Assembly (NCBI GenBank): GCA_003135435.1
Contig: PLBR01000151.1
Location: 1 to 39,588 of the forward strand
From: Nitrospira sp.
Lineage (GTDB): Bacteria; Nitrospirota; Nitrospiria; Nitrospirales; Nitrospiraceae
DNA length: 39,588 nucleotides
Direction of reading: 5' to 3'
This document shows positions 4,812 through 38,996 of this stretch, piece by piece. The notes below the pieces were generated by a model. It saw only the letters and a program-made list of their open reading frames with translations, ran no database searches and was not told the DNA's origin. How positions within the stretch are numbered: position 1 is the stretch's first letter; every line of letters begins with the position of its first letter. Made by a program: the position numbers and the translations under genes.

Positions 4812-4847
4812 CAAAAAGAAAGAGGGGGTGGGTCACCCCACCCCCTC
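4812..4847 (-). terminator. Rho-independent terminator after the NxrC-like cytochrome gene
   Basis: On the minus strand an 11-bp G/C-rich stem (arms 4822-4832 and 4837-4847, loop of four) is followed by TTTCTTTTT. It ends the respiratory operon and separates it from mobA. Confidence 0.9.
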
Positions 4848-4881: not shown

Positions 4882-6657
4882 TTAGAGGGCCTTTCCCTTC
4901 CGCTTGTTCGATCGTCTGGTGAGGACCCAACCTTCCAGAAGGACCACACCAAACGCAATCACAACCGGATAGATATAGGCTTCGCGAGGTGTCGGCGGCT
5001 CCAGGAAAGTATAATAGAAGGCCGAGACAGCCATCTTCCGCCCTGCGTCGCCATTGTGGCCGTCCCAGGCAAAGAACACAGTGGGAATGTATTGTCCCCT
5101 TTCGAAGAAGGTATCTTCGTCGTACTCCTGCTCCTTCTTATCGCCCATCGGACGCTGAACGATCACCGTCCATCGGCCATTCTTCCACTCCGAATAAAGT
5201 ATCTTGATGTTCTCTTCGTAGTTGAGCCGCTCTTCAAAATCCTTATCCCATCCGGTGCCTTTGAAGGCGCGGAGCGAACCGTCCGCTTCCCATTTTACAA
5301 TGTCGACTGGGAACTGTTCGTTGCTGCCGAACAGATACCGCGGCTTAATCGGTGAGGGAAGCTCCTTCCACTTCACAGCAGTCTCCATGGCGATCGCATC
5401 GTTGTAGACTGTGTAGTTATTCTGATGCGAGGCAATGGAGCCCTCTTCGCCGGTCTTCGGTTCCTGCTCCTTGATATCGACGTTGACTGATGTCGGAGCC
5501 CAGGGCAACTTCCCTTCGGCCACGCTCTTCGTCCGGTCATCCCACTGAAACATGAATGCGATGTGCGTATCGTTATAGAGTGACTTCACCCAGATATCGT
5601 CGATCCGGTTCACGAAATTTCTGGGCTTGTGGGTAATCTGACCACCCATCGCAACATACCGCCTGGCTCGATTCTTCCACGATTCGTGCTCTGGATCTGC
5701 AGAAATCTCTCCTACGGCCAACCCTGAGGACACCACAAAGTTGATCTTCGGCTTGTCCGCCGATGGATCGATCGCGAGGGGCTTCCCATCTGCCTCACGC
5801 TCACACAAGAAGTTCACCCAGTTGGCAATGTGCCACCGCTCTTCAACGGTGCTGTTGTCAGCGAACGAAGGCATCGGAGTGCCGTTGACCCCGGTCGAAA
5901 ATGTCCTGAAGATGTTCTTGACGTTATAGGGGTCTTGCCGGCTGCCTCTGAAGTTCCAACACTTGTGCCAATTGGCCGGCTGTATCGAAAAACCCCAGTC
6001 GTCTTTCAGATTGAAGGCATTGCCGTCACCACGGCCGTCAGCGCCATGACACTCGACACACTTCTTCTCGATCACGAGCTCCGCTCCCTTTTTTAGACTC
6101 TCCTCCGTCGGGGCAATCGGCGTCAGGTCGCCCAACTGCAACACGGTCTGGCTTTCTGACTGCTTGTCGGTGAATTTTCGATCTTTCACAAGCTGGGTGG
6201 TGACGAATGACAACACTTGGAGCCGTTGCTCTTCCGTCAGAATACCTTCCCAGGACGGCATGGCGGAGCCTGGCAGGCCGTGCGTGACAGTCTCAAACAG
6301 ATCGTTCTGACCGGGAGTGGGTTTCTTGGCATCGAACAACGGCAACTCGCCGCTGGCCGTGTGCCGAATCTTGAATGTCCCCTGGTTGAAATTGCGGGGA
6401 CGCGGCCAGAGACGATCGGCACCGGGTCCATCGCCCGCGCCATCGACCCCGTGACACCAAACACACTTGGTGAAGTAGACCCGTTTTCCTGCTTCAATCA
6501 TGTCAGCAGAAGGCTCAGGTGCTAAAGCGCCCGTCTTAAAGCCCGCAGGAAGGGTACCTTGTGCAAAGGTCAAGCCTCCGGTGCTTCCGGAGACCAGGAT
6601 AATTCCGAAGGCCGTCGTGAGGAGCGCCCCCGCCTTCAGACTAAACGAATTCTTCAT
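4882..6657 (-). CDS. NxrC-like membrane-anchored diheme cytochrome c with ethylbenzene-dehydrogenase-type heme b domain
   Basis: Periplasmic electron-transfer protein of 591 aa. It has a signal peptide (residues 1-33), two cytochrome c domains with CVWCH at 65-69 and CVECH at 200-204, and a domain at about 315-555 resembling the heme b subunit of ethylbenzene dehydrogenase-type enzymes (FMFQWDDRTKSV). A transmembrane helix at about 562-580 precedes a basic tail. This architecture matches candidate NxrC subunits of Nitrospira nitrite oxidoreductase (established knowledge). No nxrA or nxrB is in the window and the neighbours are oxidase genes, so it may instead serve the bd-like oxidase complex. 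The ATG at 6657 has AGGGAG directly upstream; an ATG at 6669 lacks a ribosome binding site. It is the last gene of the operon. Confidence 0.85.
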   Translation of the reverse strand: MKNSFSLKAGALLTTAFGIILVSGSTGGLTFAQGTLPAGFKTGALAPEPSADMIEAGKRVYFTKCVWCHGVDGAGDGPGADRLWPRPRNFNQGTFKIRHTASGELPLFDAKKPTPGQNDLFETVTHGLPGSAMPSWEGILTEEQRLQVLSFVTTQLVKDRKFTDKQSESQTVLQLGDLTPIAPTEESLKKGAELVIEKKCVECHGADGRGDGNAFNLKDDWGFSIQPANWHKCWNFRGSRQDPYNVKNIFRTFSTGVNGTPMPSFADNSTVEERWHIANWVNFLCEREADGKPLAIDPSADKPKINFVVSSGLAVGEISADPEHESWKNRARRYVAMGGQITHKPRNFVNRIDDIWVKSLYNDTHIAFMFQWDDRTKSVAEGKLPWAPTSVNVDIKEQEPKTGEEGSIASHQNNYTVYNDAIAMETAVKWKELPSPIKPRYLFGSNEQFPVDIVKWEADGSLRAFKGTGWDKDFEERLNYEENIKILYSEWKNGRWTVIVQRPMGDKKEQEYDEDTFFERGQYIPTVFFAWDGHNGDAGRKMAVSAFYYTFLEPPTPREAYIYPVVIAFGVVLLEGWVLTRRSNKRKGKAL

Positions 6658-6707
6658 GGTCTCCCTCATGTCGTGAATCCAGGCCGGCTATACATTCCTG
6701 TGAATGA

Positions 6708-7745
6708 CTAGTCCCAGGTCCGGGGATAATACCCCGTGTGCCAATATTCGAACAAGACGACTTTCCAGATTTCGTCCACAGTCAGATGCTGTTCCCATGG
6801 CGGCATCACAGAGGCCCAGGGGCCTGCTTCGTTCGGCAAGCCGATTCCACCCTTGGCCACACGCCAGAAGATGAACGTCTCCTGTAATTGCGCAATCGTA
6901 CCCGGATCAGTAAAGTTCGCCGGAATCGGATTGAACGCGAAGGCATGGAGACCGCGTCCGTTCAGATTATCGCCATGGCAAAAGTGGCAATTTTGGTAGA
7001 AGATCTCTCCCCCCTCACGCACATATTTGAGGTACCCTTGAGCATCCTTATCCCAGGGATTGGCATTCGGCTTCATCAAGCGACCCATGCCCTGTTCCAC
7101 AGTCATCGCGTTGCTATAATCCTGATCGTACTTTCCTTCAAGATTGATCCGATAGGGGTTCTGCGACGTTTGAAGGGTATAGGTCTTTCCATGCACCTTG
7201 GTGCTGGCTGGCGGCGCAGGATGCACCGTCCGCAACTCGATTGGCTCCTCTGATTTCGGGACCATCGCGTTGTATGAGAACCCGCCGATCAAGAGTGGCA
7301 GAATGATCAGATACGCATAACGCAATATCCTGATTCCCCCGGTCTTGGCATCCAAGACGTTCATGATCGGCTGCTTGAACTTCTTCCAATCTTCTTCGTT
7401 CGCAGAAACCCACATGAACACGGCCACGAGGGAGACCGCCCCATACATAGCGCGAACGCTGAACGGAATCGGGGGATACACACGAAACTTCAAATAGAGG
7501 AGAACGAACGCCCACATAAGAATCCCCTGCCAGAACCGCGGGAACGCCATCCCCATGGCCGCCATCATATAGCTAATCCCTGTAAAACCCGCCACGAACA
7601 GTATGAGCTCCAAGACCAATTGGACCGGCATGTAACCTTCGAGCAGGCGCACCGTATTTGACGGAATGATACCCACGGTCATTGCGGCAAGCAGGAGTAT
7701 TCCAACGACCCCTATGAGTGCCGCGACTGACATTAATGCTTTCAT
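6708..7745 (-). CDS. Membrane-bound monoheme cytochrome c
   Basis: This 345-aa protein has about five hydrophobic helices in the first 165 residues, followed by a periplasmic cytochrome c domain with one CHFCH heme site (about residues 253-257). VMPPWEQHLT near the C-terminus is a likely methionine axial-ligand region. The ATG at 7745 follows CGGAG seven bases upstream, which favours it over a TTG at 7769. It lies between a diheme cytochrome and the NxrC-like cytochrome in the same operon, so it probably passes electrons between a donor and the bd-like oxidase. No close named family was recognised. Confidence 0.85.
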   Translation of the reverse strand: MKALMSVAALIGVVGILLLAAMTVGIIPSNTVRLLEGYMPVQLVLELILFVAGFTGISYMMAAMGMAFPRFWQGILMWAFVLLYLKFRVYPPIPFSVRAMYGAVSLVAVFMWVSANEEDWKKFKQPIMNVLDAKTGGIRILRYAYLIILPLLIGGFSYNAMVPKSEEPIELRTVHPAPPASTKVHGKTYTLQTSQNPYRINLEGKYDQDYSNAMTVEQGMGRLMKPNANPWDKDAQGYLKYVREGGEIFYQNCHFCHGDNLNGRGLHAFAFNPIPANFTDPGTIAQLQETFIFWRVAKGGIGLPNEAGPWASVMPPWEQHLTVDEIWKVVLFEYWHTGYYPRTWD

Positions 7746-7788
7746 CGTTGAACTCCGTTTGCTCGACAAAAGAGATAGATAGCCACGA

Positions 7789-9102
7789 TTATGAAATCTT
7801 CGGTGGCGGTGAACCCGCTTTCACCTGCGACAGATAATCGACGATCTTTTTCAGCGCGCCTGCGCTCAACTTCTGCCCGAAAACCTTCGGCATCAGATTG
7901 TCGGGAAATCCTTTTACAACGTACGTACTGGGTGATACCACGGACTCCATGATGTACTCTGGAGTGCTATGTGCGGTCCCCTTGTATGCTGGATCCTTGA
8001 TTCGGTTCGGTGCATTCGTCCCCTCTTCCAGCACGGGACCTTGCTTGCCAAGTGCGCCAGGAATGCCTGGAATCGTATGGCACATGATACATTGTGCTTT
8101 GGTGAAAATTTGATCGACCGTCTCGGTCCCATCCGCCAAGAGCGCGCTTGCCGCACCTGCCGGCTTATCTTCCTGCTGCTTAGGCCGGTCAGCCTCGGGA
8201 ATAAACTTCTCATACGATTTGATAATCTCTTCGTATGACGGAGCATCACGCCCTTCGCGGACCCACAGCCAGGTGTCCACGGCCGCCAACTCAGGAAGAC
8301 TCAACGAGATCGGTGGTTTGTGAATGGGAGGCATTGGGCTTGTTTTATCGTTCGTTCCCTTGACGCCGTAGCCGACCACGACATAACAGCTCGGGCACGA
8401 GTGAGACTCAGCGATATATTCCTGAGCAGTTTCTGCAGTCCCAGACCCTGGGAAGGATTCCTTTTGCTCATAGTCTCTAGCCTGCGGGTTGCCCTTACTA
8501 TACTTTGGATCTGCTAACCGATCCTTGCCCGCTCGCTCTGGAAGGCCCATCAAGTTGGGAGCGCGTTCACCGAGCATCCCTGCGTGGAACGCGTGACAGA
8601 GAGGACACTGGCCCTTGCCGACCGCTCCCTGTTCTTTGTTCTTTCCAATTCCACCGAAAATGATCTTCTCGCCTTCATCGGCGAGTTGCTGGGCAGTCAT
8701 CGAACTGAAATCAAGCTTCTCTTCCTTAGGAGGAAATCCACCTTCGACCTGCGGCAACCAATTCCCATACCCTGACAGGCCGGCGGCAACCAAGAACATG
8801 AAACCACCAATCTTGAGCATTGCGGCATGATTGGGGAAATAGATCCCCATCATGAAGCACAATGCAGTGACAAGGACTAAGGAGACCGGAAGCATCCGGT
8901 TCGCTTCATAGAAACTCCCCTTATAGTGCGCTATCGCCAGCAACAGCATGAAGGCGGCCATCATGCCGATAAAAAGCTTGAACGTCGCGCGCTTCTTTGC
9001 AACAGGATCGCTGATGGATATCAGGGAATACACGAATAGACCGGCGAGAAGCGCGAATAGCGGCCACCCTATCGATAGAGCTTCCCTTATCAGATCGCCC
9101 AC
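7789..9102 (-). CDS. Membrane diheme cytochrome c with duplicated heme domains
   Basis: This 437-aa protein has four N-terminal transmembrane helices (about 10-30, 40-60, 70-90, 95-112) and then two periplasmic cytochrome c domains with CPLCH at 166-170 and CIMCH at 338-342. The domains look duplicated: each contains an EYI-ES...PS-YVV-G segment. In the first, that segment reads CPSCY (236-240), adding a Cys pair without a heme-binding His. The second has the expected LMPK methionine. The start is GTG, with AGGAGG eight bases upstream. It lies directly downstream of the bd-like oxidase gene and probably acts as its electron donor subunit. Confidence 0.87.
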   Translation of the reverse strand: MGDLIREALSIGWPLFALLAGLFVYSLISISDPVAKKRATFKLFIGMMAAFMLLLAIAHYKGSFYEANRMLPVSLVLVTALCFMMGIYFPNHAAMLKIGGFMFLVAAGLSGYGNWLPQVEGGFPPKEEKLDFSSMTAQQLADEGEKIIFGGIGKNKEQGAVGKGQCPLCHAFHAGMLGERAPNLMGLPERAGKDRLADPKYSKGNPQARDYEQKESFPGSGTAETAQEYIAESHSCPSCYVVVGYGVKGTNDKTSPMPPIHKPPISLSLPELAAVDTWLWVREGRDAPSYEEIIKSYEKFIPEADRPKQQEDKPAGAASALLADGTETVDQIFTKAQCIMCHTIPGIPGALGKQGPVLEEGTNAPNRIKDPAYKGTAHSTPEYIMESVVSPSTYVVKGFPDNLMPKVFGQKLSAGALKKIVDYLSQVKAGSPPPKIS

Positions 9103-9185
9103 AGTTGAAACCTCCTGCGGTTTAGGTAGGAGGGAGGCACGTTCTTCATGCCCCCACTCCCCCCAACCAAAATCCTAAAGATGAT

Positions 9186-11099
9186 TTAGTGGCCCCCAGC
9201 CGGCTGCGGTGCGCCGCCTGGAACCCCTGCCTTTATCTCGACAGGCGCCTTCTTCATCCCGAGGCTTCCCAGCCAGAAGACGAATAGGATGCTGACCCAG
9301 AAGAACAGCACATTGAATGAAATCATGTTCGCTGCGAAACCCACCGTATGCGTATAGGCCCAAGGCGAGTTATCACGCATGATTTCATTCACATGCCAGA
9401 ATAATCGGACCGAAGAGCGTATGTACCCCATCAAGCCCATCATCCAGGTAAAGGCAGTTGCGAGCATGATCAACGCATATTGCGATCGAACAGAGATCTT
9501 GCCCCACTCAATTGCCCCCATCTGCTTGGCGCCCTTCATCATGGCCGCGTTCAACGGAAACATGAAAAAGAGGCAGGACAGCGTCGTGGCGACTTGAGGC
9601 ACTGACAGACCCACCCGGACGTTTGCCGGGATGTAATATCCGTAGATGGCCAGCCAGATGATGTTCACATAGGCGCATCCGAAGAAGACACCCATGAAAA
9701 TATTGCCGAACTTCGACCAGGATACCGTCGAGACCTTATTGCCTCGCATGTACCAGACGAAGCTCAGAATGGTGGTAGTAATGATCACGTTAATTCCACC
9801 GTTCTTGGCCGACATCACCCCGTAGTTTCCCAGCACCGGGTGCTGTTGACCACCCATGGCCTTGAGCTCCGCAGGAGTCATGACTATCGTGTGGGGGGTA
9901 ATGAAAACCAGGAAGCCGCAACAGAGAACGAATACGAGATACTTAATGTAGCGCTGATATTTCTCAGCACCGCGCATCCGACCAAGCGCCTGCCAGAGAT
10001 AATAGTTCGTGCTCAAGAAGAGAATGCCGATCATGGTGGCTTGAATAATGAAGAGCCAAGCCAGGAGACCACCCATGAGCGTAATCCCCATCTGCTGGCG
10101 ATAGGCATACACCTCGCGCATCAGCCAGTAACCCGCGAACGGCAAGGGAATCAAGAACGCCACGCCGAGCGCCATGGCGATGTAGCCCATCCAGTCATAG
10201 TGCGCACGATCCTCATCAGTCTTGGAGGCCAAGAACTTGTACGCCGCATAGGCTGCCACGACACCGCCGCCGAACGCCATATTACCCAAAATGCGATGCA
10301 CGTTGAGCGGATTCCAGAGGGCGGTATGAATAACGTGCCAGATGTTCCCCAGGTACCGGCCCTGCTCGTCGACGCCGGCCGGCGACATCATGAAGCCGAT
10401 CCAGGAGTTGGCCAGGAACATGAGCAACGTACCGATCACGTTCAAGACCACGGACATGCTCAAGTGAATCCACTTGAGGAACCCGTCCGTCATCTTGTCC
10501 CAACCGTAGTAGTAGATGTACAGGGTTCCGCTCTCCGCCACAAACATCAGTGCATAGATATGCATGACCGGGCGGAAGATACTGGATAAGTAGCCGAAGA
10601 ATGCAGGATAGAGCGTCAGGAAGGTGAAGATCAGGATACCGCCGAGAATCGCAGTCAACGAATAGGCTGTCAGACTGATCTTGATGAAGTCATGGGCGAG
10701 TTGGTCATACCGCTTAGACATCGCCTTATCCTTCGTCACGACCCCCATGAACTCAATAACCATGCAGAAAATTGGAACCGCGAGCACGAAACTTCCGTAA
10801 TAGAGGTGCTGCTGATTCGCAAACCAGAGCAACACGCGGCTCTCGAAGTTATACCGCGGATAATCCCGAGGACCATCGACAGTCTTGGGAGCAGGGGCAC
10901 CGACAACGATACCCTCCGTCTTATAATAGACATCGCGCCCCTTTTCGACCGTCGCCGCCCCCTCCTTCTTCACCGCATCAGGTGCATCTGCGCCAATAGC
11001 CAGTGACGGAAGCGATACGACGATGGGGAGCAGGAGAAGGCCAATCATCGCACAAAGCGCCATGATTGAGAACAGCTTCTTCCCGGCTACACGACCCAT
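9186..11099 (-). CDS. Cytochrome bd-like oxidase large subunit (Nitrospira type), copy 1
   Basis: This 637-aa polytopic protein (roughly 14 helices) is distantly related to CydA. It starts with a cleavable-looking hydrophobic segment, and a short periplasmic stretch precedes SRVLLWFANQQH. That block resembles the CydA region carrying the b595 heme ligand (H98 here). Other conserved His are in IWHVIHTALWNPLNVH (H255, H258, H268), TPHTIVM and QQHPVLGNYG. Similar Nitrospira proteins were proposed as unusual terminal oxidases, some with an extra metal site (established, hedged). No CydB was seen; the operon supplies cytochromes c instead. The ATG at 11099 has AAGGAGG just upstream, so the ATG at 11135 is unlikely. 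Confidence 0.88.
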   Translation of the reverse strand: MGRVAGKKLFSIMALCAMIGLLLLPIVVSLPSLAIGADAPDAVKKEGAATVEKGRDVYYKTEGIVVGAPAPKTVDGPRDYPRYNFESRVLLWFANQQHLYYGSFVLAVPIFCMVIEFMGVVTKDKAMSKRYDQLAHDFIKISLTAYSLTAILGGILIFTFLTLYPAFFGYLSSIFRPVMHIYALMFVAESGTLYIYYYGWDKMTDGFLKWIHLSMSVVLNVIGTLLMFLANSWIGFMMSPAGVDEQGRYLGNIWHVIHTALWNPLNVHRILGNMAFGGGVVAAYAAYKFLASKTDEDRAHYDWMGYIAMALGVAFLIPLPFAGYWLMREVYAYRQQMGITLMGGLLAWLFIIQATMIGILFLSTNYYLWQALGRMRGAEKYQRYIKYLVFVLCCGFLVFITPHTIVMTPAELKAMGGQQHPVLGNYGVMSAKNGGINVIITTTILSFVWYMRGNKVSTVSWSKFGNIFMGVFFGCAYVNIIWLAIYGYYIPANVRVGLSVPQVATTLSCLFFMFPLNAAMMKGAKQMGAIEWGKISVRSQYALIMLATAFTWMMGLMGYIRSSVRLFWHVNEIMRDNSPWAYTHTVGFAANMISFNVLFFWVSILFVFWLGSLGMKKAPVEIKAGVPGGAPQPAGGH

Positions 11100-11180
11100 G
11101 AAACACCTCCTTGATGCATTCTGAAAAAGACTCATCGCAATCCCTTATAAACTCGACTCAGCACAGAATGAACCCCGTGT

Positions 11181-11309
11181 CTACTTCCGGAATAAATACC
11201 AGAAGTCCAGTCCCTGTGAATCCATCAAAAAGTGATCAACCGCCGTAAAATAAGCGATGCAGATGACTAAAGACACCAACGCGTACACGATTGTCTTCCC
11301 CATGCGCAT
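11181..11309 (-). CDS. 42-aa single-span membrane micropeptide in the bd-like oxidase operon
   Basis: The translation begins MRMGKTIVYALVSL and ends GLDFWYLFRK, with one hydrophobic span over about residues 6-24. A G-rich GAGGGGGG lies upstream of the two possible ATGs (11309 and 11303). It lies 81 bp upstream of the bd-like oxidase start on the same strand. Small single-span subunits such as CydX and CcoQ are common in terminal oxidases, so an accessory subunit role is inferred. No homology to those families was recognised. Confidence 0.65.
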   Translation of the reverse strand: MRMGKTIVYALVSLVICIAYFTAVDHFLMDSQGLDFWYLFRK

Positions 11310-11364
11310 TCCCCCCTCAGACCTTGCGGACGTTCAAGAAATTCCAGCGCTGCAACGGCCCCGC

Positions 11365-11487
11365 TTAGCAGGGGCACTGAATTCCAGCGAACCAATAAAA
11401 AAACCCCAAGCCCGCCGCACAGGTGATGTAAAAAATCATCCGACCGATTTTGACCTTTAGCTCGCTGTCCGCTGTTGCCGTAGCCAT
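11365..11487 (-). CDS. 40-aa single-span membrane micropeptide, first gene of the oxidase operon
   Basis: The translation begins MATATADSELKVKIGRM, followed by one hydrophobic span and the C-terminal GIQCPC. AGGAGAAGGA lies upstream of the ATG. The hydrophilic N-terminus followed by one helix, and its position 55 bp before the 42-aa gene, suggest a small accessory subunit. The terminal Cys-Pro-Cys could bind a metal or form a disulfide (inference). Confidence 0.6.
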   Translation of the reverse strand: MATATADSELKVKIGRMIFYITCAAGLGFFYWFAGIQCPC

Positions 11488-11610: not shown

Positions 11611-11715
11611 ATGCAAAGAAAATCGAAAGTGTTCGACATTATAGTTTTGGTCGGTATGGTTGTCAATATACTTTTGGCCGTGTTCCTCATTCTCTACTAC
11701 TTTGATTTCCTGTAG
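11611..11715 (+). CDS. 34-aa membrane micropeptide, divergent from the oxidase operon
   Basis: The translation begins MQRKSKVFDIIVLVGM and ends YYFDFL: a short basic N-terminus and one long hydrophobic helix. AGGGG lies about eight bases upstream of the ATG. It is one of the few plus-strand genes and starts 123 bp from the divergent oxidase operon. It ends convergently 20 bp from the SUMF1-like gene. Composition and context suggest a small membrane subunit or regulator. It matches no family I recognise. Confidence 0.55.
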   Translation: MQRKSKVFDIIVLVGMVVNILLAVFLILYYFDFL

Positions 11716-11735: not shown

Positions 11736-12626
11736 TCAGCTCTTCTCTAACTTCGTACCAGAAACCGCACAGCGAAACCCGATCGTTTCATCGCGAAAGT
11801 CCGGAACCATCTTGCTCCGGCTGGTGATGCGAATATCGGCTCCCGTGGTCGCATATCCCCCCCCACGAAGCACCCGAAATACGCCGTGATCTGGGCTCGG
11901 CGGGTTCCGTTCTGGGGCCTCCGCGAAGTAGGCTTCTCCATACCAATCGGCCACCCACTCCATCACATTTCCTGCCCCATCCATGACACCGTACGGGCTC
12001 TTATCCGTCAAAACCGTACCGACATATGCGGAAACATCATGACCATCCTGCACCCTGGCCCAATTCGCTCCGTTGGGCTGTTCCACATTACCCCAGGGCC
12101 AGAGACGGCCATCCGTTCCTCGCATGGCCTTCTCCCACTCCGCCTCAGTTGGAAGCCGCTTCCCTTTCCAATGGCAATAGGCCTCCGCATCCTCCCATGA
12201 CACATAGACCACAGGCTGATTGATGCCTTGCATCTTGCTCATGTTCTTGGCGTAACGAGCAGGAGGACCCGACTTACGATGCCCCGTCGCATCGACAAAT
12301 TCCTGGTATTGGAAGTTGGTCACTTCGTACCGATCAATGGCAAACGCATCCAGCGCCAGCGTGCGCTGCGGCTGTTCATCGAATCCGCCATGATCGGTCC
12401 CACGGATGAAGGGTCCTGCCGGAATCGAGACCATTTCTTCCCGGACTGGCTCTTCACGAGAAACCTGAGAGGGATCGAGCGGACCTGATGGGGTTGAATC
12501 CGTGGAATCAGCAGGAGACTCTTCAAACGGAGTCAGCGTGGTGCCACGGAGGATTCCCATGATAGGAATTGCAGCAAACGCAAGGATGGCTAGAAGAAAC
12601 AGCACCTTGAATTTGGTTTCGAGCAT
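11736..12626 (-). CDS. Membrane-anchored SUMF1/FGE-fold protein, paralog 2
   Basis: This 296-aa protein has an N-terminal membrane anchor (about residues 7-25), a Ser/Pro-rich linker and a formylglycine-generating-enzyme (FGE-sulfatase) fold domain. Typical signatures are VSIPAGPFIRGT, EVTNFQYQEFV, VSWEDAEAYCHWKGKRLPTEAEWEKA, GNVMEWVADWYG and VLRGGGYA...IGFRC. After RGG the Cys pair of true FGE is absent, so sulfatase activation is unlikely. The ATG at 12626 lies two bases after the upstream paralog's stop, implying translational coupling; earlier in-frame codons lie inside that gene. The anchor faces the domain to the periplasm (inference). A structural or assembly role for the adjacent oxidase is possible. 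Confidence 0.85.
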   Translation of the reverse strand: MLETKFKVLFLLAILAFAAIPIMGILRGTTLTPFEESPADSTDSTPSGPLDPSQVSREEPVREEMVSIPAGPFIRGTDHGGFDEQPQRTLALDAFAIDRYEVTNFQYQEFVDATGHRKSGPPARYAKNMSKMQGINQPVVYVSWEDAEAYCHWKGKRLPTEAEWEKAMRGTDGRLWPWGNVEQPNGANWARVQDGHDVSAYVGTVLTDKSPYGVMDGAGNVMEWVADWYGEAYFAEAPERNPPSPDHGVFRVLRGGGYATTGADIRITSRSKMVPDFRDETIGFRCAVSGTKLEKS

Positions 12627-12628
12627 GT

Positions 12629-13555
12629 CTATTGTGACGCCGCGGGGCTGTCGCCAACCTCCATATCGCTCGCACAGCGAAACCCGATCGTAATATCCGT
12701 CCGCCAATGCTTCGCAGCAAATCGCTTGGATAGCCGAACGTTATGCTCGGTCTCTCGCCACGACCCTCCGCGAACGACTTTCAAATCGCCGGTGTCCGGC
12801 CCTTTCGGATCGCGATAGGGCGCTTTCTGATAGTAGTGTTCATCGTATGAATCCGCGACCCATTCCGCGACGTTCCCCGTCATGTCATAGATTCCGTAGG
12901 GACTTAGCCCGGTCTCGAACGATCCAGGAGGAGCGAGATACCGATACCCGTCTTCACTCCCATCCACATTGGCATTGGCACGGCCGTTCATGAAGGTGTC
13001 GCCCCACGCGTACTTCCGCTTTCCTTCACCACGGCCGGCTTTTTCCCATTCCGCTTCCGTGGGAAGGCGCTTTCCCGCCCATTTGCAATAGGCCCCCGCC
13101 TCCTCCCATGTCATGCTCATCGCCGCAAACTCGGGCCTCAGCAGCTTGGATTGATCGTCTTCAAACACTTCGATCTTGGGCAGCGGACGCTTCGTCATTT
13201 TGGCGAACCGGGCATATTCTTCTTGCGACACTTCTTTCTTGTCGAGATAGAACGCCTTGAGAAACACTTGACGCTCTGGCGTCTCATCCGGGTCGCCATC
13301 TTTGCTGCCCATGATGAACGGGCCATCGGGAACCTGCACCATTTCTCGGCCTTCATCACCTATTTTCGTTTTGTACATAGAGTAATCCAGCGAGGGTGCG
13401 CTGCTCGGAGCCGGGCGAGTCTCGGTCTTGATCGACAATGCCAGTGCTTTCATCTGCTTCGACTTGTAGGACTCATAGACCAGCAAGCTAATCATCAGGA
13501 TGAACGACCCAAAGACAAACACGATCGAGCCGATAAGTACTCCTCTATTTTCCAT
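12629..13555 (-). CDS. Membrane-anchored SUMF1/FGE-fold protein, paralog 1
   Basis: This 308-aa protein has one N-terminal transmembrane helix (about 6-27) and an FGE-sulfatase fold domain from about residue 70 to 300. Signatures are VQVPDGPFIMGS, EVSQEEYARFA, MTWEEAGAYCKWAGKRLPTEAEWEKA, YDMTGNVAEWVADSYD and VVRGGSWRET...IGFRC. The catalytic Cys pair of true FGE is missing, as in the paralog that follows two bases downstream. It belongs to the operon with the second bd-like oxidase, DUF3047 and a glycine-rich membrane protein. The substrate or partner is unknown. Confidence 0.85.
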   Translation of the reverse strand: MENRGVLIGSIVFVFGSFILMISLLVYESYKSKQMKALALSIKTETRPAPSSAPSLDYSMYKTKIGDEGREMVQVPDGPFIMGSKDGDPDETPERQVFLKAFYLDKKEVSQEEYARFAKMTKRPLPKIEVFEDDQSKLLRPEFAAMSMTWEEAGAYCKWAGKRLPTEAEWEKAGRGEGKRKYAWGDTFMNGRANANVDGSEDGYRYLAPPGSFETGLSPYGIYDMTGNVAEWVADSYDEHYYQKAPYRDPKGPDTGDLKVVRGGSWRETEHNVRLSKRFAAKHWRTDITIGFRCASDMEVGDSPAASQ

Positions 13556-14664: not shown

Positions 14665-16536
14665 TCATGCCTCTTGCGACGACGGTGGCGCCAGTGCCGT
14701 TGCGTTTCCCTTGGCCAACTCTTCCCCCATCACAGGCAACTGCTCACGCTGACACATCCAGAATAGGGTGAGCACCGCGCCCCAGAACACCATCATATTA
14801 AGCGTCACCATCTTCGCAGCGAACGCGAAGTCCGGTGTAAAGGCCCAGGGAGAGACATCGGCCATCAACTCACTCACATGCCACGCCAACCGTCCGGATG
14901 AACGGATGTATCCCATGAGACCCATAACCCACGTGAATGCCGCAGCCAATCCGAACAAACCAGCCATGCCCCTGAGGGAAATCTTTCCCCACTGGACCGG
15001 CCCATGAACGACCGCCCCTTTGAGCATGATGCGATTGATGACCACACCGACCACAAGGACCGTCAACGTGGTTGCCGCCTGCGGCGACGACAGCCCGACG
15101 CGGAGCTTCGCCGGCAGATAGTACCCGTACACTGAGAGCCAGATAATATTGAGCGCCCCTAGGAAGAACAGCGCGCCGATGAGGATGTTCCCTCTCTTGA
15201 TCCAGGACACGACCATCGTTCGATTGGCGCGACGGTAATACATGAAACTCATGGTGGTCACAAGAATCATGATGTTGACCGCGCCGTTTTTCGCCGACAT
15301 CACTCCGTAGTTGCCGACCACGGGATGCGATGCTCCGCCCATCGCCTTTACTTCACCGGCCGACATCCAGACGGTGTGTGGTGTCAACCAAACAAACAGG
15401 GCCACCACGAACACCGAAAGCAGCACTTGGTAATAGGGCTGATACCGTTCCCCTCCACGAAGGCGCGCCATACTCTGCCAGAGATAAAAGTTTACTCCGA
15501 GGAAGAGGACGCCGATCAAGATGGCCTGCACGACGAAAAGCCAGGTGAGTAATCCACCCATCATCGTCACACCCATACTCTGGCTGAATCCGTAGACCGA
15601 TCGCATCAACCAGTAGCCGGCAAAGGGCATCGGTAACAACGCGCAGACCGTGACAAATAAAAAGATATGCCCAACCCAGTCGAAATAAGCGCTCTCTTTT
15701 TCGGTCTTGCTGGTGAAAAATCGATAGCACGCATATGCCATCACCACCGCGCCACCGGACATAATGTTTGCCAGGAAGCGATGGACATTCAATGGATTCC
15801 ACAGAGCCGAATGGAGCAAATGCCATCCGTTCCCCAAAAACCGCCCTTGCGCATCGACACCGGCCGGAGCCATCATGAAGGCCGACCAGGCGTTTGCCAA
15901 GAGCAGTAGTGCCGTCCCAAACAGGTTAGACAACAGGCCGATCGATGCGTGAACCCACTTCGAAGTCTGCTCAGCCAGCCGGTTCCAACTATAGTAATAG
16001 ATGACGAGCAGCAGCGATTCTCCGAGAAACACGATCGCATAGACCGGCATAAAGGTCTTGAACGTCCCGCCCATGTACCTCATGAAGCTGGGATAGAAAT
16101 AGAGAAATATCCCCAGCATGAGGCTCCCGACCACCGCCGTCACCGACAGAGCTAGGAGGGCGACTTTTGCCAAATCACGCGCGAGGCCATCATAGCGAAG
16201 TGCGAGCGTGGGCTTTCTGCTGCTGAGCCCCAAAAACTCCAGCAACACACAAAAAATCGGCAACGCAAGAACAAGCCCTCCGAAATAGGTGTGTAGCTGC
16301 GTGACAAACCACACGAGCAATCGACTGTCTAACGACCCGATGTGCGGGTAGACGGTCTCCTGAGGAGAAGGAGCCGGCGGCCCCTGGGGAGTTCCTGGTG
16401 TCTTGAAATATAGATCGGTGGCGTCCTCGGCAAAGGATTGGCTCTGAAGACCCCAGCCAATCCCCAAGGCCGCGAAAACAACCAATAGCAGGACAGAATA
16501 CCCGACCACCCTGGACGCTTTTTTCGTCATCACCAT
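14665..16536 (-). CDS. Cytochrome bd-like oxidase large subunit (Nitrospira type), copy 2
   Basis: A 623-aa polytopic paralog of the oxidase encoded at 9186-11099. Shared blocks include SRLLVWFVTQLHTYFGG, APAGVDAQGRFLGNGWH, LHSALWNPLNVHR, PFAGYWLMR, LTPHTVWM, HPVVGNYGVMSAKNGAVN and YGYYLPAKLRVGLS. The putative heme and metal His of those blocks are kept. A His kept in copy 1 (VMHIYALMFVAES) is Pro-Val here (MPVYAIVFLGES), so the cofactor set may differ. Unlike copy 1 it is not followed by cytochrome c genes but by DUF3047 and SUMF1-like genes. The intergenic space before it is filled by a dispersed repeat. Confidence 0.87.
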   Translation of the reverse strand: MVMTKKASRVVGYSVLLLVVFAALGIGWGLQSQSFAEDATDLYFKTPGTPQGPPAPSPQETVYPHIGSLDSRLLVWFVTQLHTYFGGLVLALPIFCVLLEFLGLSSRKPTLALRYDGLARDLAKVALLALSVTAVVGSLMLGIFLYFYPSFMRYMGGTFKTFMPVYAIVFLGESLLLVIYYYSWNRLAEQTSKWVHASIGLLSNLFGTALLLLANAWSAFMMAPAGVDAQGRFLGNGWHLLHSALWNPLNVHRFLANIMSGGAVVMAYACYRFFTSKTEKESAYFDWVGHIFLFVTVCALLPMPFAGYWLMRSVYGFSQSMGVTMMGGLLTWLFVVQAILIGVLFLGVNFYLWQSMARLRGGERYQPYYQVLLSVFVVALFVWLTPHTVWMSAGEVKAMGGASHPVVGNYGVMSAKNGAVNIMILVTTMSFMYYRRANRTMVVSWIKRGNILIGALFFLGALNIIWLSVYGYYLPAKLRVGLSSPQAATTLTVLVVGVVINRIMLKGAVVHGPVQWGKISLRGMAGLFGLAAAFTWVMGLMGYIRSSGRLAWHVSELMADVSPWAFTPDFAFAAKMVTLNMMVFWGAVLTLFWMCQREQLPVMGEELAKGNATALAPPSSQEA

Positions 16537-16547
16537 ACTTCTTAGTG

Positions 16548-16717
16548 GGCTACAGAAAAACTATGTTGGCGCACAAGAACATCGATAATTTGCACGTCTG
16601 GGACAAACCCTGTCTGTCTGGTCCATCTGATTGGTCTCATACAAGCAAACAAACCAGACAGACCGAGCAGACCAGATGAACAAGACAGGCTGGCGGACTT
16701 TTTGAGCATCCTGTTAG
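16548..16717. repeat. Inverted-terminal dispersed repeat with internal TGTCTGG/CCAGACA palindrome
   Basis: The left end CTACAGAAAAACTA and right end CTTTTTGAGCATCCTGTTAG match the termini of the element at 21499-21724. The interior is a quasi-palindrome of TGTCTGTCTGGT-type arms against ACCAGACAGACC-type arms. It fills the whole gap between the membrane protein gene and the second oxidase gene, and its right end supplies the TAA stop of the former. Confidence 0.75.
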
Positions 16718-17769
16718 ACCTTCGAGCCAGAACCAGCCTGCATTGAAACGCCTGCACCCGTCGACTTACCGAGAATTCCCATGACGAAGGGACATCGGAG
16801 CAAGGCACTCGACATCGTGTGTCCCTGTTGTTCTTCTACATGCCGCCGAAACCCGAGATAGTAACAATACAGCGCCATCATGCCTGTCACGAATCCGCCA
16901 CCGGCCATGGCATAGGAAATGGGAATTCCAGGCTCTCTCAAGAGGAAAATCACACATCCCGCCGCCACCAGATAATACGTCGCGGCAATGGCGAATCCAG
17001 GCCACCACCAATATTTGAGCAATTCGCTCGCCTTCGTCTGCAGCAGCCCTTGGATCCATGACGCTTGTGGGCGAAGCCCACCTAAGTAGGCACAGAGAGC
17101 AACCCCGCCCCCCAGCACCGACACAGCGGACAGCTGAACCAGGGCCGCGCCCTGATTCGCCTCGACGAGATGCCCCAGCGACGCGCCCAGTGCACCGACG
17201 ACCACACCAACTGCGACCCAGGGGGCAAGTTCCATCGCATGATGGCCCACCATCGTGCGAAGGGCCGCCCCATCGGGAAACGTCGGAAATGGACGGCCCA
17301 TGAGGGACACTTTCCGCACGTGACCAATCTCGAAGGCATCGCGCGCGACAGACGTGCAGGAAATAATGATGGCCATCATGGCCGGCCCATCCGGATGTTT
17401 GAGATAGTCATACCCGACGAGCCAGAGCAGCGCCAAGGCCAGCAGAGACAACTGGACCCCATACACAAACCCGATCCAGCCGCCGAGCCATATCAGCAAA
17501 CGGCTTCCATCCTCTTGGAGGATCCTCCCCCACGCGGTGGCGCGACCGACACGATAGGCTAACAGCGCCGTCAGCAACGCGACAAGACCGCTGACCATCA
17601 GTAACACGATCGGTTCCGACAACGGCAACAGAAGCTTGGACACCCGATAGACAGCAAACGCCACCAACCCAGGCACAAACATGACTATCCGCTTCTGCTT
17701 GCGCATAGCGTCTTCTGTGACGGCCAGACTGAGGCTGGGCAACACTCGTAACGCCATTCGATGCAACAT
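16714..17769 (-). CDS. Multipass membrane protein of unknown function
   Basis: This 351-aa protein has about eight hydrophobic segments, arranged as pairs around the polar loop SCTSVARDAFEIGHVRKVSLMGRPF and the segment TMVGHHAMELAPWVAVG. His, Glu and Asp in or near these membrane segments (FEIGH, GHHAME) could bind a metal or heme. I do not recognise the family. It is downstream of the PCP_red gene and upstream of the second bd-like oxidase on the same strand. Its stop codon is contributed by a repeat terminus, so the C-terminal residues may have been altered by insertion. The start could also be the ATG at 17706. Confidence 0.7.
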   Translation of the reverse strand: MLHRMALRVLPSLSLAVTEDAMRKQKRIVMFVPGLVAFAVYRVSKLLLPLSEPIVLLMVSGLVALLTALLAYRVGRATAWGRILQEDGSRLLIWLGGWIGFVYGVQLSLLALALLWLVGYDYLKHPDGPAMMAIIISCTSVARDAFEIGHVRKVSLMGRPFPTFPDGAALRTMVGHHAMELAPWVAVGVVVGALGASLGHLVEANQGAALVQLSAVSVLGGGVALCAYLGGLRPQASWIQGLLQTKASELLKYWWWPGFAIAATYYLVAAGCVIFLLREPGIPISYAMAGGGFVTGMMALYCYYLGFRRHVEEQQGHTMSSALLRCPFVMGILGKSTGAGVSMQAGSGSKV

Positions 17770-17780
17770 GATCCGCTCGT

Positions 17781-17875
17781 TAAACGTGAAACGTGAGGAG
17801 TGAAACGTGAAATGTGAAATGTGAAACGAAACAGTCTCTTTTCGTTTTACGTTTCACGTTTCACCTTTTACGTCT
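17781..17875. repeat. GTGAAAC-type tandem/inverted intergenic repeat
   Basis: Several GTGAAACGT-like units read in one direction (about 17784-17826), followed by inverted ACGTTTCAC units (about 17846-17871). The cluster fills the gap between two genes and contains the TAA stop of the PCP_red gene. Related clusters lie at 18373-18402, 19206-19322 and 25215-25244. Confidence 0.7.
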
Positions 17876-18362
17876 TCTGAGCGCCCATCCCGAAATAGCG
17901 CGCCTTCACTTCTTCCATCAGCGCGACGGTGATGCGCGTCTCGCCGCGATCGGCCGCAGTCCGCTCCAATTCTATGCGTGCCATGGCACGCACCGGCGCC
18001 GGCACCTTGTCCAATCGACGCACCGCTTCAGGTTCCCACTCGATGCGTTCGCCGGTTCTTGGACGGAGCAACGTGTCGTAGGCGATGACCCGTTCTCCTC
18101 TCACCCGCACGTCTTGCTCCACCTCACCGCGCACGAGCGGGGCAAGGTACGGAGGCATGCGATCAAGCCGATGGATCGCATCATCGGTCCACATCACCCG
18201 ATCGACTAACCCACTGAGTTGATCGGCAGGGACATCGACCCCTACTTTTAGGCCACAGCCGCGACATTCCGTCCGAATGAACCACTGGGGCGTTCCATCG
18301 TCGTACGAACGTTCTTCTATCCCCTCGGTATGCATCCAGCGACCACAGCCACAGGTCAGCAT
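17868..18362 (-). CDS. Zinc-ribbon protein with two PCP_red-like modules
   Basis: This 164-aa protein starts with a probable zinc ribbon: CGC at residues 4-6 and CRGC near 34-37. Two similar helical modules follow, WTDDAIHRLDRMPPYLAPLVR and WEPEAVRRLDKVPAPVRAMAR. The second continues into ERTAADRGETRITVALMEEVKARYF. That pattern is the PCP_red domain (light-independent protochlorophyllide reductase B C-terminus), which also occurs in non-phototrophs. The ATG at 18362 is preferred because earlier in-frame codons lie inside GTGAAAC repeats. It sits between DUF420 and an unknown membrane protein. A role in cofactor or oxidase maturation is inferred. Confidence 0.75.
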   Translation of the reverse strand: MLTCGCGRWMHTEGIEERSYDDGTPQWFIRTECRGCGLKVGVDVPADQLSGLVDRVMWTDDAIHRLDRMPPYLAPLVRGEVEQDVRVRGERVIAYDTLLRPRTGERIEWEPEAVRRLDKVPAPVRAMARIELERTAADRGETRITVALMEEVKARYFGMGAQKT

Positions 18363-18372
18363 GCTGAAACAC

Positions 18373-18402
18373 CGTGAGGCGTGAAACGTGAAACGTGAAA
18401 CG
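18373..18402. repeat. GTGAAACGT tandem repeat
   Basis: CGTGAGGC is followed by three GTGAAACGT units, directly upstream of the PCP_red gene start. A different short repeat of ATCAC units follows at 18449-18472, at the 3' end of the DUF420 gene. Confidence 0.7.
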
Positions 18403-18471
18403 TCTCGGAGCGCGTGATTGTCCGCCATCTCCGCATAGCGTACCGATCACTCATCACAGATCACCCATCAC

Positions 18472-20465: not shown

Positions 20466-21263
20466 TTACTTGATTTCGGCCTTGAGAGTGGCAGTCGCGC
20501 CGTCAGCCACTTCAACCTCAAACTCCACTTTCTTACCCTTGGCGGCAAACGGATGCCAGGCCACAACTTTGTGCTTGCCAGGAGGAACATCCTTGATCTC
20601 GAAGGAGCCATCTTCCTTCACGACCGCGAAGTGCGGACTCGACACCGGGAGAAAGAAGCCCTGCATGAACTCATGCTGGTCGCACTGCAAGCGATAAAAA
20701 CCATCCTTCTCTGCACCGCCACGGAACATCACCTGCTTATCGAGCTTGTCACCCTTCTTCGCCAAACCGATGTTGAAACCGGTGGCCGAGCTGGTGCCCT
20801 TCACAGTGAAGCTGTGGGGGTTGTGCAACACGCCTAGCACCGACTTTGGGTCATCGGCATCGGCATCATGATTTTCGACGTGGAAGTTCTTGGTGTTGAC
20901 CACGATACCGCTGAAGGGGAGGAACTCGCAGAATTCTGCAACCACCTCAGTGCCCTGATACCCATCAACGAACGCCTTATCTTCGACATCGATCACCGCG
21001 ACCACCGCGTTCTTGAGGCCGCCATCCTTGCCGACTTCAATCTGCTTCAGGAATCGTTTGTCCCCATCCATCAATTCCTTGTGTGGGTTCTTGGGACAGA
21101 ACTTAGGATTGGGGAACTTCGAGAATAAAAATTCCTTCTGCTCGGCCTTGCCCGCATAGGTCACCTTGCCGGCAATCGTTCCGCCTGCATACGAGGTGAG
21201 AGGCGCCGCGACAAACGCGACGGCTGCCACGCCCAATACCGCTGATAACACACCCTGTCTCAT
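20466..21263 (-). CDS. Secreted cupredoxin-like protein with carboxypeptidase-regulatory-like domain (A)
   Basis: This 265-aa protein has a signal peptide (about 1-26, ending TSYAGG). Candidate type 1 copper ligands are H150 in LHNPHSF, and C194, H197 and M200 in LQCDQHEFM. A Cys pair (C56, and C112 in FCEFLPF) may form a disulfide. The C-terminal 50 residues (GSFEIKDVPPGKHKVVAWHP) form a CarboxypepD_reg-type beta-sandwich. It is a paralog of the cupredoxin-like proteins at 24288, 25240 and 33262. It is monocistronic, with its own promoter and terminator and a strong AAGGAGG before the ATG. A periplasmic electron-carrier role is inferred. Confidence 0.82.
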   Translation of the reverse strand: MRQGVLSAVLGVAAVAFVAAPLTSYAGGTIAGKVTYAGKAEQKEFLFSKFPNPKFCPKNPHKELMDGDKRFLKQIEVGKDGGLKNAVVAVIDVEDKAFVDGYQGTEVVAEFCEFLPFSGIVVNTKNFHVENHDADADDPKSVLGVLHNPHSFTVKGTSSATGFNIGLAKKGDKLDKQVMFRGGAEKDGFYRLQCDQHEFMQGFFLPVSSPHFAVVKEDGSFEIKDVPPGKHKVVAWHPFAAKGKKVEFEVEVADGATATLKAEIK

Positions 21264-21440
21264 GTGACTACCTCCTTATGACTCCTTGTGGTGAACAAAT
21301 AACTAACCGCTCAGTGTATTGTATGCTCTCGTTCCCTTATCTCCTACCACCAGCCATGAGGGGAAACGGGAACGTATTCCTCCCTGGTGACTCGATCGCA
21401 ATTGAGATTCGCGTTGGCGAGGCTAGTCTCAGAAAGATTC

Positions 21441-21470
21441 TATATACAAAAGTCTACCCTACCCTGTCAA
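21441..21470 (-). promoter_or_regulatory. Sigma-70-type promoter for the 265-aa cupredoxin-like gene
   Basis: On the minus strand a perfect TTGACA (21470-21465) is followed after 18 bases by TATATA (21446-21441). The implied leader is about 165 bases long, ending in AAGGAGG before the ATG at 21263. Confidence 0.65.
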
Positions 21471-21498
21471 TCTGAAAAAAGGGGGTATCAATGCAGAG

Positions 21499-21724
21499 CT
21501 AACAGGCTGCGGGAAAACTATATCGGCACGCGAGAACTTTGCTTGGCCCGCATGTCCGGGACAATCCTGGGCTGTCTGGTTATCTGGTCTCTCTGGTTCA
21601 TCTCGTTGATCTGGTCTATCTGGTTGGTCTGGTTCAACCAAATAATCGAGACAGACCAGATAGACGAGACAGACCGAACAGACCACATGAGCAAGACAGG
21701 CTGCCGGACTTTTTCAGCATCCTG
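21499..21724. repeat. Full-length inverted-terminal dispersed repeat (about 226 bp)
   Basis: The left end CTAACAGGCTGCGGGAAAAC and right end CTTTTTCAGCATCCTG are imperfect inverted repeats. Inside, T/G-rich TGGTCTATCTGGT units face A/C-rich ACCAGATAGAC units, so the whole can fold into a long hairpin. It lies just past the 3' end of the HEAT-repeat gene and may end its transcript. It is the best-preserved copy of the family in this window. Confidence 0.8.
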
Positions 21725-21731
21725 CAGAGGC

Positions 21732-23117
21732 CTATTTCTTCTGTTGAAGAAGGTGCAGCAGCGCCCCTGCCGCAGTGGCCCTCACAGCATCATTCGTGTC
21801 GTGAAGGGCTTCCTTCATGAGGGGAGCAAGTTCACGATCCCCCACATGACCGAGGGATCGAAGCGCCACAATCTTCGGACCGGGAAGCGGGTCAGCCGTC
21901 AGGCTGGTCAAAAGAGAGATTGCTCCTGGTGCGTTGGCCTTGGTCGCCTTCCCAAGGGCATAGGCCGCAGAAGCACGTATAGCCGTATCGTTCTGTTGGG
22001 CCAGCGATTGCGCGGTGGCGGCCACCGTCGAGTAGGGCCGGCCAAGCTGGAGTAACGCGGCAATCGCTGAGGCACGAACGGTAAAGTTGCCGTCACTGAG
22101 CGCCTGCGTGAGTGCCGGCACCGACTCCGGTCCTCCCAGCTCTGCGAGCCCCCCTGCCGCGGATTCGCGAACGGCAGGCACAGGATCTTTCAGTAACTGC
22201 TCAATTTGTTCCCGCGCCTCATTTCGTCCGAGATGCCCCAGCCCCCTGGCCGCAGCCCCACGAACAGAGGGCTGCTTGAAGCTCAACGACTCCGTCATGA
22301 TGGGAGCGCCACGCTGGTCTTTCAATTCGGCTATCGTGCGAATTGCGTCGGCTCGATCCTCAGGATTCAGCGACTCTGCGGCCTGCTGCAATTGGGTCCA
22401 AACCTCCTTCTTACCGAGCCTGATCAAGGCGCCATACGCCGCGATACGAACCGTAGAGAGCTCGTCCTTCGTAGCCGATTCGACTAACGAAAGGACTCCG
22501 GGATCTCCCGTTCGGCCGAGCGCTTTTACCACGCGCGCCTTCACCAACCCTGCTTGATCCTCGATCGCCGCGCGCAATTTCGTTGATTTCCGCCCCGCCT
22601 CAGATCGACCGAGCCCCTCGACTGCGAGAACCCGGACCGGTCCGGACCCGTCGCTCAAACCATCTTCGAAATAAGGAACGACCTCGTCCGAATCCACCTC
22701 TTTGAGCGCCGTATAGGCCGCCCCGCGCATTTGTTCACGCATGTCCTTCACCATGACGAGGATGAACCCCAGCGCCACCTCTCGGAGGAGGGGCACCTCA
22801 TCTTGCGTGAGCGCGAGTTCCAGTTTGTCGTACTCGCCGAGTGCGTCCTTGGGGTTGCCAAGCTTGAGAAAGGAGCGGATTTTAAGCCTGCGAACGTCTG
22901 GAGCGGCACTCTGCTCCTGCTCCAGCTTGGCCAACTTCTCAAGCACCTGTGCGTACTGTTGCTTGTCGAACGCCTCTTGCGCATCTTTGGGGACAGATGA
23001 GGTCCCGGCAGCCAACAGCAACTGATCCGCTCCACTCAACAGATAGAACCAAGCCACCGCAACTGCGGCCAACAGATTCCAACGACACAAACGCCTGCGC
23101 ATCATCAGTTCACTCAT
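21732..23117 (-). CDS. Secreted/anchored HEAT-repeat protein
   Basis: This 461-aa protein has an N-terminal basic-hydrophobic segment (about 8-37) that is a signal peptide or anchor. A short TPR-like region (about 42-100; AFDKQQYAQVLEKLAKLEQ) follows. About nine HEAT/PBS-lyase-type repeats from about residue 125 to the end show the pattern V-A-A-LG-LG-A, for example VRGAAARGLGHLG and VRESAAGGLAELG. Such proteins are protein-binding scaffolds. The ATG overlaps the stop of the upstream gene by four bases, so the two are translationally coupled. The partner is unknown. Confidence 0.82.
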   Translation of the reverse strand: MSELMMRRRLCRWNLLAAVAVAWFYLLSGADQLLLAAGTSSVPKDAQEAFDKQQYAQVLEKLAKLEQEQSAAPDVRRLKIRSFLKLGNPKDALGEYDKLELALTQDEVPLLREVALGFILVMVKDMREQMRGAAYTALKEVDSDEVVPYFEDGLSDGSGPVRVLAVEGLGRSEAGRKSTKLRAAIEDQAGLVKARVVKALGRTGDPGVLSLVESATKDELSTVRIAAYGALIRLGKKEVWTQLQQAAESLNPEDRADAIRTIAELKDQRGAPIMTESLSFKQPSVRGAAARGLGHLGRNEAREQIEQLLKDPVPAVRESAAGGLAELGGPESVPALTQALSDGNFTVRASAIAALLQLGRPYSTVAATAQSLAQQNDTAIRASAAYALGKATKANAPGAISLLTSLTADPLPGPKIVALRSLGHVGDRELAPLMKEALHDTNDAVRATAAGALLHLLQQKK

Positions 23118-31157: not shown

Positions 31158-31239
31158 GGATCGGCCTCCTTGAAATGGTAAGTGAAACATCCAACAACCC
31201 AAGCGAAACTTAATAGGTCAAAAAAAGATTTGCGCTCAC

Positions 31240-38927: not shown

Positions 38928-38996
38928 ACCCTTCAGCCTCCTCTCTATATTAATCAGTAAACACGCTTGTACCCAAGACTGACTCAATGTCCGATA

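Follow-up and report, generated by a model that had tools for sequence, protein, structure and literature searches.

A CydA-like subunit and its c-type cytochrome partners in Nitrospira: a putative cytochrome-c-fed oxygen reductase

How Nitrospira respire is a standing question, as most of these bacteria lack a heme-copper oxidase. A stretch of 39,588 nucleotides from a Nitrospira-like genome of 4.34 Mb (contig PLBR01000151.1 of assembly GCA_003135435.1; genome G000, contig C194 in our survey), here called the window at its full length, carries a gene set that bears on it. On the minus strand, in the order smA-smB-bd3-c2-c1-altC and closed by an intrinsic terminator, lie genes for two small membrane proteins, a CydA-like subunit, two membrane cytochromes c and a protein resembling subunit C of nitrite oxidoreductase (NXR) (Table 1). 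This cluster is an ortholog of the bd-like_3/alt_NxrC_2 cluster of Nitrospira moscoviensis, from which nothing essential differs. Could a CydA-like protein that lacks CydB reduce O2 with electrons from cytochrome c? We consider it somewhat probable that the complex is a cytochrome-c-fed O2 reductase of the bd superfamily.

A conserved gene set in several phyla

The original prediction, made from the letters of the window, described a bd-like oxidase operon of four genes (bd3, c2, c1, and altC) with its own terminator and no CydB. All four were found at their predicted positions on the minus strand, as was the terminator, and the sole CydB (PF02322) of the genome sits on another contig (C201), adjoining a canonical CydA. 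The two small genes at the operon head, the promoter, and a second CydA-like gene (bd4) had been overlooked. Chance or misannotation as the source of the gene set is ruled out by its conservation across genomes. The co-occurrence across Nitrospirota that had been proposed as a check was borne out in a phylum survey of 148 genomes, including 37 Nitrospirales: bd3 and altC share a contig and strand, 2.5 to 2.6 kb apart, in 36 of the 37 (in the remaining genome, G143, the matches fall on different contigs), and they are also linked in 14 genomes of the phylum outside Nitrospirales. The order bd-c2-c1-altC is kept in those 36 Nitrospirales genomes and in the 14 others. Among named genomes it recurs in 65 of 80 loci, and another 11 are truncated where the contig or locus stops; these loci belong to Nitrospinota, Nitrospirota, Deltaproteobacteria/Myxococcota, and alpha-, beta-, gamma-, and zetaproteobacterial metagenome-assembled genomes, and in many proteobacterial loci the set is duplicated in tandem. 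Carriers include Sedimenticola, Thiodiazotropha, Mariprofundus, and Gallionellales, which belong to lineages known to oxidize sulfur or iron. The occurrence in anammox bacteria is taken from published papers; the named-genome scan returned other phyla.

In at least 14 loci, from Nitrospirota, one deltaproteobacterium, and Gammaproteobacteria, c1 and altC are fused into one polypeptide that carries three heme-c motifs. These fusions give the strongest sequence support for joint function of the parts and are good evidence for one complex. A predicted fold of one natural fusion (L155) reached a predicted local distance difference test (pLDDT) score of 67 and was not used. Together with a gene order that is invariant over several phyla, the fusions lend good support to the proposal that the products form one membrane complex with a periplasmic donor.

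Both small genes are present in 29 of 29 Nitrospirales loci. Among codon pairs differing by a single change, which are not mutually independent, synonymous pairs outnumber nonsynonymous ones by 3,479 to 1,147 in smA and by 4,910 to 1,112 in smB, the pattern of genes under purifying selection. Similar open reading frames (ORFs) occur at the same position in two class-level relatives (L093, L094). Since small single-helix subunits such as CydX are usual in bd oxidases, smA and smB are candidate subunits of the complex by analogy. Upstream, the promoter hexamers match the consensus at 12 of 12 positions in all 34 Nitrospirales loci examined. A 34-residue single-helix membrane microprotein (MQRKSKVFDIIVLVGMVVNILLAVFLILYYFDFL; 11611-11715, plus strand) overlaps this promoter, and the protein and the hexamers are conserved in 39 Nitrospirales sequences. 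Plain noncoding conservation of the promoter was dropped as an explanation, since the conserved ORF runs through it on the opposite strand. Within both hexamers the wobble bases (codons ATT, ATA, GTT, and GTC) are invariant in the 39 sequences, where most neighboring codons vary; promoter and microprotein therefore both appear to be real.

Table 1. Features of the gene set and its surroundings in the window
Feature	Coordinates	Strand	Description	Remarks
Promoter	11638..11666	-	sigma-70 consensus promoter, TTGACA-17-TATAAT	12/12 match; 150 nt upstream of smA
smA	11365..11487	-	40-aa single-transmembrane protein, C terminus GIQCPC	candidate small subunit
smB	11181..11309	-	42-aa single-transmembrane protein, C terminus QGLDFWYLFRK	candidate small subunit
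bd3	9186..11135	-	649-aa CydA-like multi-transmembrane subunit, bd-like_3 type	Pfam Cyt_bd_oxida_I
c2	7789..9102	-	437-aa membrane diheme cytochrome c	Pfam Cytochrom_C; 2 CxxCH
c1	6708..7769	-	353-aa membrane monoheme cytochrome c	Pfam Cytochrome_CBB3; 1 CxxCH
altC	4882..6669	-	595 aa, alt_NxrC_2 type	2 heme-c motifs plus NxrC/EBDH-gamma-like domain
Terminator	4822..4847	-	intrinsic terminator of the operon	GC-rich hairpin, 11-pair stem, then T-run, just 3' of altC
bd4	14665..16536	-	second CydA-like protein (bd-like_4), possible CydA' partner	51% identical to bd3

Heme and quinol sites of the subunits

The Pfam Cyt_bd_oxida_I match in bd3 is limited to residues 99 to 346 (E = 3e-20), and the fold extends well beyond it. 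In an AlphaFold model (pLDDT 80.6; predicted template modeling score 0.81), residues 88 to 635 align with CydA of Escherichia coli bd-I and bd-II and of mycobacteria at Z scores of 31 to 34, the best alignment having Z = 33.8 and a root mean square deviation of 3.5 over 350 residues. Membrane subunits of alternative complex III (ACIII) match more weakly (Z = 20 to 23; 6f0k_F, 22.6), as does PsrC (Z = 14); CydA and ACIII are the strong fold matches among the matches listed. The equivalents of five E. coli CydA residues are all kept in bd3: H19 (H110), E107 (E201), H126 (H224), H186 (H280), and M393 (M441), the mapping in the C-terminal half being a low-identity alignment. In the solved E. coli structures, H186 and M393 are ligands of heme b558, H19 is a ligand of heme d, and K252 and E257 are part of the quinol-binding Q-loop. 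These last two fall in gaps in all bd-like sequences and are kept in the canonical CydA of the same genome, which served as the alignment control and retains every residue tested. A b558-like heme and one ligand of an O2-binding heme are therefore plausible in bd3, and quinol oxidation at the usual CydA site is not; because the Q-loop residues are gone, the complex would not use quinol.

The second CydA-like protein, bd4, lies upstream of bd3 in 36 of the 37 Nitrospirales genomes and forms a separate clade, sister to bd3, within Nitrospiria. Its ligands are the same as those of bd3, and the E107 equivalent is lost in some genomes (L108, L111). It might be a CydA' partner of bd3. A protein next to bd4 (16714-17769) was tried as a hidden CydB and found no support: its family profile has no relative in the PDB.

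The cytochromes c2 (CxxCH at residues 166 and 338) and c1 (residue 261) each have four transmembrane-like stretches. In altC, an N-terminal signal or transmembrane stretch precedes CxxCH motifs at residues 69 and 204, followed by a C-terminal EB_dh domain (Pfam E = 6e-10) and a C-terminal transmembrane stretch. Against solved structures, the altC family profile finds subunit C of Kuenenia NXR (7b04_C, E = 2.9e-21) and the gamma subunit of ethylbenzene dehydrogenase (EBDH; 2ivf_C, E = 5e-17). In Kuenenia NXR-C, Met155 and Lys305 hold heme b (PMC8387239). These align with Phe447 and Lys545 of altC, so that the Lys is kept and the Met is lost; the Met position holds Phe or Trp in all intact Nitrospirales altC sequences read and Met or His in many relatives outside the order. 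As one of the two axial ligands is missing, a heme b in altC is doubtful. Of the c-c-b heme order originally predicted for altC, the two c hemes are thus secure by motif, and the heme b is not.

A separate, genuine NxrC gene lies near nxrA on contig C156, together with a TorD-like gene and a sigma-54-type regulator; the nxrA fragment there matches Kuenenia NXR-A at E = 4e-194. The original prediction had held that a shared complex would become unlikely if the NxrC-like gene neighbored nxrA or nxrB and had no conserved link to the oxidase. We found the reverse: altC is not linked to nxrA and stays with bd3, and the bd3-altC cluster also occurs in genomes without an NxrA match at 1e-30.

Proposed electron route and acceptor

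We infer that smA-smB-bd3-c2-c1-altC would encode one membrane-bound respiratory complex with O2 as its acceptor. Electrons from periplasmic donors would enter the c hemes of altC; in Nitrospira, they would ultimately derive from nitrite via NXR and a soluble cytochrome c. From altC they could pass to the membrane-anchored c1 and c2 and on to the b-type heme of bd3 (ligands H280 and M441), with O2 reduced at the heme held by H110. The structural place of CydB may be filled by bd4 or by a second bd3.

Oxidase inventories bear on this proposal. Heme-copper oxidases gave no match in 33 of the 37 Nitrospirales genomes at E = 1e-20, and none in the window genome even at E = 0.01. Three genomes outside Nitrospirales that keep the cluster (G119, G131, and G139) have neither an NxrA match at 1e-30 nor a heme-copper oxidase. 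In one of these, G131, a class-level relative that is 96% complete, the only CydA-family protein is the bd3 of the cluster, and CydB is absent as well. G131 also encodes a membrane fatty-acid desaturase, an O2-requiring family that among control genomes matched only in O2-using organisms. This inventory, combined with the desaturase, favors O2 as the acceptor of the complex. The cluster is also present in a single-contig Nitrospiraceae genome (G110) that likewise has no NxrA match at E = 1e-30 and may represent a member of the family that does not oxidize nitrite.

Several points weigh against O2 reduction. Two E. coli glutamates, E99, in the heme d pocket, and E445, a ligand of heme b595, correspond in bd3 to Tyr194 and Leu568, the latter within the region of low-identity alignment. 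The canonical di-heme O2 site is therefore not preserved, which leaves the second active-site heme uncertain; the same changes are common to other bd-like paralogues. Nitrospira has other oxidase candidates, namely two OR-N-like genes on contig C68 and the CydAB on C201. The genome of G131 is 4% incomplete, alternative oxidase (AOX) was not among the families searched in it, and a single gene is what points to an aerobic life. The reported carriers of the cluster include Kuenenia, which is a strict anaerobe (PMC3578206), and the accessible literature contained no biochemistry of the complex.

A rival reading has the same complex running in reverse, pushing high-potential electrons from NXR or cytochrome c to quinone at the expense of the proton motive force; this would be reverse electron transport, in a role resembling that of an ACIII. 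Such a role has been proposed for the cluster (PMC6606698, PMC3578206), and it would suit anammox bacteria, which do not respire O2 and are reported as carriers (PMC3578206). The loss of the two O2-site glutamates and the resemblance of the bd3 model to 6f0k_F fit as well. Most of the relatives fetched come from lineages generally known for lithotrophy, which is also consistent with reverse transport. However, none of the canonical quinol-site residues tested is retained and no new quinone site can be seen, CydA is a far better fold match than ACIII, and no other bd or heme-copper oxidase was found in G131, which possesses an O2-dependent desaturase. We regard reverse transport as less probable than O2 reduction but as a serious rival to it. 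Of the two directions, O2 reduction is favored by one genome, G131.

The homology of altC to NXR subunit C suggests a different role, in which altC serves mainly as membrane anchor and electron acceptor of NXR, with bd3 as a scaffold, in a function specific to nitrite oxidation; a role of this kind has been suggested for alt_NxrC (PMC6606698, PMC3578206). The genuine NxrC, however, sits near nxrA, and the cluster occurs in Proteobacteria of lineages not known for nitrite oxidation. It is also intact without an NxrA match at 1e-30 in G110, G119, G131, G139, and further members of the phylum, and a role restricted to nitrite oxidation is therefore quite improbable. Least probable of all, and in our judgment very much so, is that bd3 is a protective enzyme that reduces NO, a peroxide, or a similar compound rather than O2 or quinone. 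The altered O2-site residues would allow it, as would the reported presence in anammox bacteria, where NO is an intermediate, but the cluster is very highly expressed under normal growth in N. moscoviensis (PMC6606698), and three attached cytochrome c subunits suggest main-chain respiration.

Extending the oxygen reductase reading, we tentatively speculate that the cluster encodes a widespread CydA-core O2 reductase of lithotrophs, lacking the b595 glutamate, equipped with three c-type parts and two microproteins, and able to act as the sole terminal oxidase. If so, cytochrome c oxidases would in effect include a third kind, one that does not depend on nitrite oxidation. The cluster is detached from nitrite oxidation by its wide distribution, by the fusions, and by G131, a genome that allows an oxidase role to be judged almost on its own.

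Neighboring genes and known systems

The 3.5 kb between bd3 and bd4 hold genes for two FGE-sulfatase-domain proteins, a small membrane protein, and a DUF3047 protein. The FGE-sulfatase-domain proteins (12629-13555 and 11736-12707, minus strand) have N-terminal membrane stretches and keep this location in the Nitrospirales loci read. Beside bd4, the protein at 17868-18428 (minus strand) has a PCP_red domain (dark protochlorophyllide reductase), which also occurs in a radical-SAM and a universal-stress protein near the cluster in Sedimenticola (L204:2-1387 and L204:1371-3599); a link of these proteins to cofactor or heme maturation is possible. HEAT-repeat and CarboxypepD_reg/fn3-like proteins adjoin the bd-like cluster in both Nitrospira (20466-23117, minus strand) and Sedimenticola (L204:3878-7035). 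Farther away, two giant multicopper-oxidase proteins of about 1,600 residues (26292-31202 and 34185-38987, minus strand) adjoin CarboxypepD_reg-like proteins and show distant similarity to the manganese oxidase MnxG (E of about 2e-42, far below the cutoff of the model).

Compared with canonical CydAB, bd3 has the CydA fold and the equivalents of H19, E107, H126, H186, and M393, whereas its cluster lacks CydB and the Q-loop, has lost E99 and E445, and adds c-type cytochrome partners. Likewise, altC shares a homologous C-terminal domain and the heme-b Lys with NXR subunit C and EBDH gamma but differs in its two extra heme-c motifs, its membrane anchor, the Phe in place of the heme-b Met, and the lack of linkage to nxrAB. 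The OR-N families (CydAA'; Murali et al. 2021, cited in PMC10839748 and PMC12342949) are CydA proteins without CydB or a quinol site for which cytochrome c is the proposed donor, i.e., proposed cytochrome-c O2 reductases (PMC10839748). Like them, bd3 is CydA-like, has no quinol site, and has no CydB in its cluster; in contrast, the terminal oxidase proposed for Nitrospira is an OR-N1/OR-N2 pair, in the window genome probably the genes on C68. Related bd-like complexes are reported in Mn-oxidizing Nitrospirota, where TO_1 of Manganitrophaceae, from organisms that lack genes for nitrification, is described as a bd-like oxidase complex that includes a periplasmic cytochrome b (PMC9040806).

The closest systems are published clusters. 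That of Nitrospina and Kuenenia has a bd-like protein that lacks quinol residues and has 14 predicted transmembrane helices, mono- and diheme cytochromes c, and an alternative NxrC, but is grouped with nxr genes, of which the window has none (PMC3578206). In N. moscoviensis, the cluster encodes a bd-like oxidase together with two c-type membrane cytochromes and a diheme alt_NxrC that has one transmembrane helix, and all Nitrospira have a second bd-like gene a few genes from it. During nitrite oxidation the cluster ranks among the 40 most transcribed genes (PMC6606698), and reports place it in Nitrospina and anammox bacteria as well (PMC6606698, PMC3578206). The arrangement, which the original prediction had singled out as notable, had thus already been described for Nitrospira, Nitrospina, and anammox bacteria, and as the published bd-like_3/alt_NxrC_2 cluster it is already known. 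In the accessible literature on the cluster, we found no mention of the fusion of c1 with altC, the two small genes, the replacement of Met by Phe, the embedded promoter, or a genome with this single oxidase. Relative to these accounts, the present comparison adds signs of one ancient respiratory module apart from nitrite oxidation, two predicted small membrane proteins, and a heme b site that is doubtful, the last two being corrections for any purification or modeling of the complex.

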